Part shown: positions 8,990 through 10,840 of the stretch, piece by piece | Layout of the letters: each line of letters starts with the position of its first letter | How positions within the stretch are numbered: the stretch's first letter is position 1 | Origin: Adhaeribacter terrigena | GTDB lineage: Bacteria > Bacteroidota > Bacteroidia > Cytophagales > Hymenobacteraceae | Assembly (NCBI RefSeq): GCF_016623615.1 | Contig: NZ_JAEHFX010000003.1 | Location: 496,001 to 560,000 of the forward strand | Direction: 5' to 3' | DNA: 64,000 nt | Translations under genes and position numbers: made by a program | Notes under the pieces: generated by a model | The model's database searches: none | Seen by the model: only the letters and a program-made list of their open reading frames with translations | Told to the model about the DNA's origin: nothing

Positions 8990-9205
8990 GTGAAACCTTT
9001 AATTAAAAATTTAAATCAGGAAAAAGAAAATCTAAAGGAAAAAGAAAATTTAACCCTTATTGAAAAGCTAACCACCATGGTTGCCAGTTTACCAAACTAC
9101 AGCCATTTAACTAAAGAGGACCACAGACAAATTGCAGAATCTCTTCTTGATCTTAGTTATTCCTATTATTCCATTTTTCAAACCCAATATTGCAATGGCA
9201 ACTAA
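8990..9205 (+). CDS. Small protein coupled to the serine recombinase
   Basis: This frame overlaps the recombinase start: its stop lies in ATGGCAACTAA, where the ATG at 9195 begins the recombinase. Such an overlap points to translational coupling. The start is uncertain (GTG 8990, 71 residues; ATG 9077, 42 residues; TTG 8975). The product is charged at the N-terminus (LNQEKENLKEKENL) with a helical middle (SHLTKEDHRQIAESLLDL). It has no known domain that I can recognise. It may be an accessory or directionality protein, or only a leader peptide. Confidence 0.5.
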   Translation: MKPLIKNLNQEKENLKEKENLTLIEKLTTMVASLPNYSHLTKEDHRQIAESLLDLSYSYYSIFQTQYCNGN

Positions 9206-10802
9206 TAAATTTAACCAGTTCGCTTCCTTTGCCAAGAAGAATAAAAAGATAGTAAAGAAACTTGGCAAATATGCTGTAATCTATACCCGCGTTTCCTCAA
9301 AGGAGCAGGCGGATGAAGGGAATAGTTTAGAAACCCAGCTTAAATATTGCCAGCAATATGCCCAGCGGAATAACTATGAAGTTCTGGAGTACTTTGGCGG
9401 AACTTATGAAAGCGCTAAAAAAGACGAAAGAAAAGAATTCGTTAAAATGCTCTCTTTTGTAAAAAGGCAAAAAGCTAAAGTTAGTACCATCATTGTCTAT
9501 AGCTTCGACCGCTTCTCCCGTACTGGTGGAAATGCCCTTTATCTGGCAGATCAATTAGAGGAGATTGGCGTTTCCATTTCTTCTTATTCACAGCCAACCG
9601 ATGCTACAACTTCTGCTGGTAAACTCAACCAGAGCATGCAGTTATTATTCGGGAAGTATGATAATGATCAAAGAAGGGAAAAATCAGTAACTGGCATGAA
9701 AGAAGCCTTGCGCAGAGGTTACTGGGTGAGCAAACCTCCAATTGGTTATGAAAGGGCGATAAAAGATGGGCAGAATTGTATTGTTATCAATAAGACGGGA
9801 AAACTAATAAAACAAGCTTTCCTGATGAAAGCCAAAGAAGGCCTGAGTAATACCTCCATCAAAGCCAAGCTTAACAGCATGGGTTTGCGTGTAAGCAACC
9901 AAAAGCTTACTCATATATTTAAAAACCCCTTTTATTGTGGCATCATTACTAACAGTTTATTAGAAGAAGGTGAGCTAATAGAAGGCAGACACGAAGCGCT
10001 AATCTCAAAAGAATTATTCTTACAAGTTAATGATATTCAGTCTGTAAATCCTCAAGGCTACAAGGTACAGTTACAGGATGAGAATCTGCCTTTAAAGCAA
10101 CATATCCGTTGTGCAACTTGTGGCACACCATTTACTGGCTATGAAGTAAAGAAAAAGGGCCTTCATTATTACAAATGCAATAAGATTGGCTGCAAGTGCA
10201 ACAAGAGCGCTAAAACGATGCATGAGAATTACTTGGAGCTACTTAAAAAGTACCAGGTTGACCGAGAGCTAATCCCAGTTCTAAAAGAAGCATTAGCTGG
10301 TGTTTACGGAGAAATGAATGAGAATAATAAAAAACAATCAAAACTCATTCAGCAGCAAGCTACAGAAACCAGAAAGAAATTAGAAGACCTAGAAGAGCGT
10401 TTTGTATTTAGAGAAATCCCAAAAGAACTTTATGAAAAGTATAGCCAGAAATTAAAGGATGAGCTAAGGACAACCGAAGCACAATTGGCAGAACTCGACG
10501 GACCATTATCGAACCATCAAAAATTCATTGAATTAGGCTTAAATTTTAGTGTAACGCTCTGTGAATCATGGGAAAGCGCTAACTTCATGAATAAGCAAAG
10601 ACTCCAAACCTTAGTATTTCCGGAAGGAGTGTACTTTGACCGTCAAAAACAGGGTTATCGAACTCCAAGAGTTAACTCGATTTTCAAGTTAACTTCTTCA
10701 TTATGTGAACATTACAAAGAGGCTAAAAAAGAAAAAACCAGCCTAAAGACTGGTTTTTCAAATTTGGAGCCCCCAGTCGGAATCGAACCAACGACCTACT
10801 GA
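9195..10802 (+). CDS. Large serine recombinase / site-specific integrase
   Basis: The 535-residue protein has an N-terminal resolvase domain (residues about 17-165). YTRVSSKEQ carries the catalytic serine and FDRFSRTGG the arginine pair. A Recombinase domain follows (GYWVSKPPIGYE onward), then a zinc ribbon (CATCGTPF ... CNKIGCKC, near residue 310) and a coiled-coil region. The start is set at ATG 9195, because the upstream extension to 9132 is a hydrophobic stretch overlapping the preceding small gene. The last residues (EPPVGIEPTTY) are translated from a terminator and the 3' part of tRNA-Thr on the other strand, so the true C-terminus was probably replaced at the integration junction. Confidence 0.92.
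   Translation: MATNKFNQFASFAKKNKKIVKKLGKYAVIYTRVSSKEQADEGNSLETQLKYCQQYAQRNNYEVLEYFGGTYESAKKDERKEFVKMLSFVKRQKAKVSTIIVYSFDRFSRTGGNALYLADQLEEIGVSISSYSQPTDATTSAGKLNQSMQLLFGKYDNDQRREKSVTGMKEALRRGYWVSKPPIGYERAIKDGQNCIVINKTGKLIKQAFLMKAKEGLSNTSIKAKLNSMGLRVSNQKLTHIFKNPFYCGIITNSLLEEGELIEGRHEALISKELFLQVNDIQSVNPQGYKVQLQDENLPLKQHIRCATCGTPFTGYEVKKKGLHYYKCNKIGCKCNKSAKTMHENYLELLKKYQVDRELIPVLKEALAGVYGEMNENNKKQSKLIQQQATETRKKLEDLEERFVFREIPKELYEKYSQKLKDELRTTEAQLAELDGPLSNHQKFIELGLNFSVTLCESWESANFMNKQRLQTLVFPEGVYFDRQKQGYRTPRVNSIFKLTSSLCEHYKEAKKEKTSLKTGFSNLEPPVGIEPTTY
10733..10758 (-). terminator. Terminator of tRNA-Thr, overlapping the recombinase 3' end
   Basis: AAACCAG pairs with CTGGTTT over an 8-base loop with A- and T-runs on both sides, so it can work on either strand. 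It ends tRNA-Thr on the minus strand and lies inside the recombinase frame. Confidence 0.75.
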
Positions 10803-10840
10803 TTACAAGTCAGTTGCTCTACCAGCTGAGCTATGGAGGC
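10768..10840 (-). tRNA. tRNA-Thr (anticodon TGT), copy 1
   Basis: The minus strand reads GCCTCCATAGCTCAGCTGG, then the anticodon arm CTGACTTGTAATCAG, the T arm GGTTCGATTCC, and a 7-bp acceptor stem closing with TGGGGGC. The length is 73 nt without CCA. The identical tRNA recurs at 13264. Its 3' half is overlapped by the recombinase reading frame, suggesting the island is integrated at this tRNA. Confidence 0.97.

Follow-up and report, generated by a model that had tools for sequence, protein, structure and literature searches.

The window analysed here, 64,000 nucleotides of an Adhaeribacter terrigena contig, contains the right end of an island of about 52.4 kb that is inserted in a tRNA-Thr gene. 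The evidence for the island, its ends and the architecture of its family is strong. Very probably, the island was inserted by its own serine integrase, which would recognise the tRNA gene by its T-arm, carry the attachment site of the circular form (attP) within its own gene, and have its C-terminal tail swapped on integration. This reading is drawn from sequence comparison, which yields both ends of the island, the core that they share, a 5-bp rule for the position of a T-arm motif, a frame that stays open across the joined ends, selection on the resulting tail, and recurrence of the arrangement across tRNAs. It is very likely that this enzyme catalyses the integration. Loss of the C-terminal helix would be expected to alter its activity afterwards, the most likely outcome being a stabilised integrated state.

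The recombinase gene, its tRNA and the ends of the island

Features of the window are listed in Table 1. The recombinase frame starts with the ATG at 9195 and stops with the TGA at 10800-10802, the C-terminus being ...SLKTGFSNLEPPVGIEPTTY. It matches the Pfam profiles Resolvase (2.2e-25) and Recombinase (4.7e-13), a zinc ribbon at 22.9 bits (under the cut-off of 25.3), and a PHROG integrase. The catalytic domain has the invariant Y-x-R-V-S, with active-site S34. Catalytic domain, recombinase domain, zinc ribbon and coiled coil together are those of a large serine recombinase or integrase.

Table 1. Features of the window, with coordinates in the window.
Feature	Position	Strand	Basis
DUF1508 protein, cargo	857..1195	+	Pfam
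dnaE-like polymerase (-), DinB polymerase IV (-), XRE regulator (+), SRAP (-)	1522..6931	.	Profile searches
314-aa gene ahead of recombinase	7876..8820	+	Homologues in Adhaeribacter, Pontibacter and Rufibacter elements
Integrase of the island, a large serine recombinase	9195..10802	+	Pfam, PHROG integrase, fold match for relative L269; frame ends inside tRNA-Thr
Element-borne terminator of tRNA-Thr, in-frame part of recombinase (P' arm)	10730..10764	.	Minus-strand hairpin
tRNA-Thr(tgt), occupied attB	10765..10840	-	ARAGORN and spacing analysis
Core GAGCCCC, right end (attR)	10767..10773	.	Left end closed by a second copy, C18:454412-454418
Second tRNA-Thr(tgt), native terminator, stand-in for the empty site	13263..13336	-	tRNA prediction, terminator comparison

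An earlier note, made from the sequence alone, had claimed that the recombinase gene ends within the opposite-strand tRNA-Thr, that the codons before this lie in the terminator of the tRNA, and that the C-terminus EPPVGIEPTTY is tRNA-derived. All three claims stand. By its position on the minus strand, the tRNA takes in exactly 35 codon bases as well as the stop. Before these, the codons fall in a hairpin (-14.0 kcal/mol) that has its T tract on the tRNA strand; this terminator is unlike the native one of the second tRNA-Thr (tRNA-Thr2) and of both tRNA-Thr copies of A. soli. The peptide is antisense to the tRNA, and a different tail supplants it when the island ends are joined. The occupied gene (tRNA-Thr1) has an encoded CCA end, at 10765-10767, and tRNA-Thr2 is without one; the CCA end seems to be supplied by the arm of the element.

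A second tRNA 3' segment, which at the far end of an island would be the signature of a tyrosine integrase, was sought within 210 kb leftwards, and only whole tRNAs were found. A whole-genome search with the tRNA end returned only the tRNA-Thr2 copy and other tRNAs, and the search for T-arm fragments in the genomes with tRNA-Glu elements likewise returned only whole tRNAs. As the tRNA-fragment searches were fruitless, the native terminator was searched for instead, with success. The native terminators of the two tRNA-Thr copies of A. soli are of one kind, AAAAAAGCACTTCC...AGTGCTTTT, and this pattern occurs exactly twice in the host genome, at tRNA-Thr2 and at C18:454366-454418. The latter stretch is identical over 53 bp, including GAGCCCC, to the flank of tRNA-Thr2, and diverges beyond. 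The terminator copy and its GAGCCCC place the island at C18:454412-506773. The sequence common to both ends is GAGCCCC, 7 bp only.

The left end is 41.6 kb left of the window start, in keeping with the earlier note, which had found no left half in the window and had proposed an integration junction at the tRNA 3' end; the 53 identical bp bear this out. In the congener A. soli, tRNA-Thr1 has its native terminator and no recombinase, and is the empty site; the A. soli contig stops 154 bases past this tRNA. An insertion at a tRNA 3' end with an empty site in a relative is what is expected of a tRNA-site island. Two findings had been named as counter-evidence, namely relatives with the same junction and no island, and a left end unrelated to the tRNA. 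Neither was made, the A. soli tRNA being native and the left end tRNA-related.

The tRNA-Thr2 gene was considered as the other attachment half and rejected, because it is a complete gene in its own right, has a terminator of its own and is duplicated in A. soli too. Further tandem tRNA copies (Arg-Pro, Met and Asp) are present at C21:189280/191880, C1:123734/126252 and, in the window, 40376/40825, some of them about 2.5 kb apart as in the tRNA-Thr pair. Just inside the left end, at C18:454485-454508, there is a tRNA-Glu 3' fragment with a terminator, which points to an older element or a nested one. Inverted within the island, at C18:471664-471680 on the minus strand, is another left-arm motif, whose tail is of the Glu type (EISNFIHKDFAALNAFFH). 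In view of these nested remnants, which resemble attachment sites, the island may be composite.

The cargo is that of a multi-system defence island, with DNA-repair genes. From the left, outside the window, it comprises a giant LRR/RHS protein with a Tae4-like domain and a PKD/GEVED secreted protein; then a CBASS cyclase with a Sa_NUDIX 2TM effector, an IS transposase and a PDC-M62 pair; then type I restriction-modification, a McrBC-like pair, a phosphoesterase and a peptidyl-arginine-deiminase-like protein. In the window there follow, in this order, the DUF1508, dnaE-like polymerase, DinB, XRE regulator and SRAP genes, the 314-aa gene and the recombinase. Homologues of the 314-aa gene lie upstream of several relatives' recombinases, and the gene is not kept across the whole family. 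It has no match in Pfam, PHROGs, NCBIfam or PADLOC, and its N-terminus has, by eye, a MerR-like appearance. It can be regarded as an accessory gene, and speculatively as a directionality factor.

The 5-bp offset and the exchanged tail

For the LI integrase, the position of the motif bound by the zinc domain differs between attP and attB, lying 5 bp closer to the centre in the latter (PMC3783163). The T-arm of tRNA-Thr contains ATCGAAC on the plus strand, which is presumed to be the zinc-domain motif here. Relative to its place in the tRNA, the motif (TCGAAC) is displaced outward from the core by exactly 5 bp in attP: ATCGAAC lies 8 from the core in tRNA-Thr and 13 from it at the left end of the island, and the corresponding distances in the tRNA-Glu elements are 11 in the tRNA and 16 at the left end. 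A short core and a motif 5 bp farther out in attP are thus found for the tRNA-side half-site; on the other half-sites (P' and B') no clear 5-bp-shifted motif was seen by eye.

This rule alone located the left ends of 12 of 15 elements; none was found in G077, G027 and G032, where some regions were too short. When offsets from -8 to +20 were scanned, there were 17 matches at 0, which are the tRNAs, and 13 at +5, 10 of these directly after a terminator. Other offsets gave 0-2 matches, except -7 (12) and -2 (4), which are attributed to a repeated GTAG in tRNA-Glu and like coincidences. Among ten further genomes, outside the host family, the rule gave left ends in five to six. Those in Flavisolibacter, three Chitinophaga and a Flammeovirgaceae genome are convincing and that in Flavipsychrobacter is probable; none was found in G246, G247 and G250, some regions again being too short.

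When the ends are joined in silico, the circle junction of the host reads AATTTG-GAGCCCC-TAAGCAGTGAATTATCGAAC. The recombinase frame stays open in 11 of 11 elements, with a related tail, and in six elements of the further genomes it likewise runs on into a SN-x-F-xxx-D-L tail. In the element studied here, EPPVGIEPTTY is replaced by EPLSSELSNFLNQDIISLANFFELTI. The tail of the excised circle is a conserved C-terminal helix, xSNFxxxDLxxLxxF, of about 25 residues. The 5-bp displacement changes the reading frame, so that ATCGAAC encodes S-N in attP but I-E-P in the tRNA.

A left-arm pattern gave 87 matches, in 41 of 204 family genomes, and the reversed control gave 2. Nearly all of the 38 distinct left arms encode ELSNFIHxDLxxLxxYL-like tails with a stop after about 18-25 codons. 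Over tail codons 6-17 (33 sequences, with four arms that have aberrant tails set aside), pN/pS is 0.55 in the coding frame vs 0.99 and 1.02 in the other frames, a figure that is descriptive only, since the sequences are related. In the integrated state the tail lies tens of kb from its gene, so that selection on it argues for a function in the circle.

A natural junction of the attP type is present in L269, a metagenome-assembled contig with an intact frame of 549 aa, which is either a circle or a tandem. No circular contig was found, and no close relative of the circle in viral contigs or in phage or plasmid records. The AlphaFold2 model of the L269 protein has a serine-integrase layout with a long coiled coil, and the structures most similar to it are those of full-length serine integrases. 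Confidence is very low for the stretch encoded by the hairpin (507-530); the tail (525-547) is modelled as a helix at low confidence (pLDDT about 50-57). In the tRNA-Asp element of Chitinophaga fulva (G242:C1:2175599) there is a junction resembling attP with the tail out of frame, and this element may have lost its tail by a frameshift near the hairpin.

Targets across the family and competing explanations

Among 98 relatives, the long homologues end inside differing tRNAs (Glu, Met, Arg and Leu). At least 517 relatives turned up when named genomes were scanned, and the tRNAs were tallied for the best 80 in genome contigs. At 62 of these 80 there is an opposite-strand tRNA 3' end at the homologous position, in 61 cases within -2 to +1 nt. 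These tRNAs represent 8 isotypes and 15 anticodons. The recombinase stops inside the tRNA at 43 loci, beyond it at 18 and before it at one. In several of the other 18, there is part of a tRNA-derived tail and foreign sequence begins after it, a pattern that later insertions would produce. By a strict stem test, a terminator is present on the tRNA strand at 27 of the 62 loci, which makes it a common feature and not necessarily a universal one. In an even sample of 296 Bacteroidota genomes, nine had a strong match, one of them with five copies, and the family is widespread in this phylum.

The isotype is clustered on the tree yet often switches (37 changes vs 54 in shuffles). Near-identical recombinases have the same P' arm and core, followed by different tRNAs: for example, after ...CGTTTAGTAC comes either tRNA-Arg, tRNA-Leu(gag) or tRNA-Leu(taa). 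The crossover is thereby located no later than the end of the common core.

Some further observations concern individual relatives. In L010 and L016, the end of the recombinase covers only part of a tRNA T-arm, and a tyrosine integrase-like frame comes next; it appears that this tRNA has received a second element. In A. soli C11:307742, L335 and L337, left arms follow directly on the recombinase 3' end of another copy, and these are tandem insertions or remnants with attP-like junctions. Many homologues have ATCGAAC again in the recombinase 3' end, about 100 bp before the core; its codon frame appears to vary (YRT, HIEL, KIEP), and it might be a further DNA site. Distant serine recombinases (about 26% identity) on the viral contigs L277 and L275 also end in tRNA-Arg, so that the targeting of tRNAs may extend past this family.

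It could be argued that the left-end tail is not protein, and that it is conserved for DNA binding in the attP arm with the open frame as a by-product. The first codons (GAA TTA TCG AAC) do coincide with the DNA motif, and attP arms need to be conserved as DNA. However, for about 40 nt beyond the motif the sequence is still conserved in the manner of codons, with D, L, L and Y/F fixed and third positions variable; the lowered pN/pS is confined to the coding frame; the tails end at stops after about 18-25 codons; and in every joined element, as well as in the six from further genomes, the tail is in the frame of the recombinase. We consider this explanation unlikely.

Still less probable is placement of the island by a tyrosine integrase, with the serine recombinase at the junction as a passenger. 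The appeal of this explanation is that tyrosine integrases classically target tRNA 3' ends (PMC4383910) and that tyrosine integrase-like frames adjoin some members, namely L010 and L016; but in these the adjacent tyrosine integrases interrupt the serine junction. Such an origin also fits poorly with the short core, with a left end that has no tRNA fragment, with the 5-bp offset, which is a serine-integrase signature, and with recombinase ends that match tRNA ends within 2 nt across many isotypes. Frames that run antisense through tRNAs and end in GIEPTT-like peptides are common in gene calls, and the overlap might on that account be chance read-through unrelated to mobility. This is already excluded by its recurrence at the same position, and mostly in the same frame, in 62 of 80 relatives, and matching left ends exist; its probability is practically nil.

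Proposed mechanism and comparison with known systems

On the integrase reading, attP in the circle would lie within the 3' part of the integrase gene, with the frame crossing the hairpin and the core and then continuing into the helix, which comes from the other end of the island. The integrase would recognise tRNA genes by the T-arm motif ATCGAAC (integrase strand), 5 bp nearer the core than in attP, and strand exchange would take place in the short core, at the CCA end, the discriminator and the first acceptor pairs. The product would be a working tRNA with an element-borne terminator, and the C-terminal helix of the integrase would be swapped for a short peptide antisense to the tRNA (...GIEPTTY). 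We suggest tentatively that the helix may be a directionality switch: the full-length integrase of the circle would integrate, the form with the tRNA-antisense tail could not re-excise unaided, and, because the enzyme reads the universal T-arm, nearly any tRNA with the same core could be a landing site.

A widespread Bacteroidota family appears both to target tRNA genes and to split itself. These islands would be overlooked by standard island finders, which rely on a displaced tRNA fragment. A serine integrase with the universal T-arm as its target could be developed for use as an integration tool, for which almost any genome would offer a landing site. The exchange of the tail makes direction sensing by the integrase directly testable.

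In the open-licence literature searched, tRNA-targeting serine integrases are unreported and self-splitting integrases are archaeal only; an earlier report elsewhere is possible. Tyrosine integrases have been described as the only ones known to target tDNAs (Islander; PMC4383910), a review of IMEs places serine-recombinase elements within genes and gives tRNA 3' ends as tyrosine targets (PMC5704250), and the main text of a large 2022 survey of serine recombinases leaves tRNA unmentioned (PMC10083194).

The large serine integrases (A118/LI, phiC31, Bxb1, SPbeta and TP901-1) resemble the present enzyme in catalytic, recombinase and zinc-ribbon domains and in fold, and also in the short core and the 5-bp offset of the zinc-domain motif (PMC3783163). 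Unlike them, this family targets many tRNA 3' ends, has attP in the integrase frame and exchanges its C-terminal helix. The archaeal 'suicidal' tyrosine integrases of the SSV type share the location of the attachment site within the integrase gene, which is split on integration; as far as can be read from sequence, this is also the case here. tRNA genes are among their known targets. They belong to an unrelated enzyme family, the archaeal tyrosine recombinases with PF16795, whereas Pfam identifies a serine recombinase here, and in the present case just the last 25 residues or so are swapped, the rest of the gene remaining intact. The SSV-type enzymes are said to occur exclusively in archaea (PMC8371274). 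Islander-type tRNA islands are alike in being placed at a tRNA 3' end, with gene restoration by the element; they have a displaced tRNA fragment at the far end, whereas none marks the far end here. The nearest precedent for an integration-dependent C-terminus is the integration-dependent immunity of mycobacteriophage BPs, in which attP likewise lies within a reading frame and integration alters the C-terminus of a phage protein (PMC4557955); there the altered protein is the repressor, and here it is the integrase.
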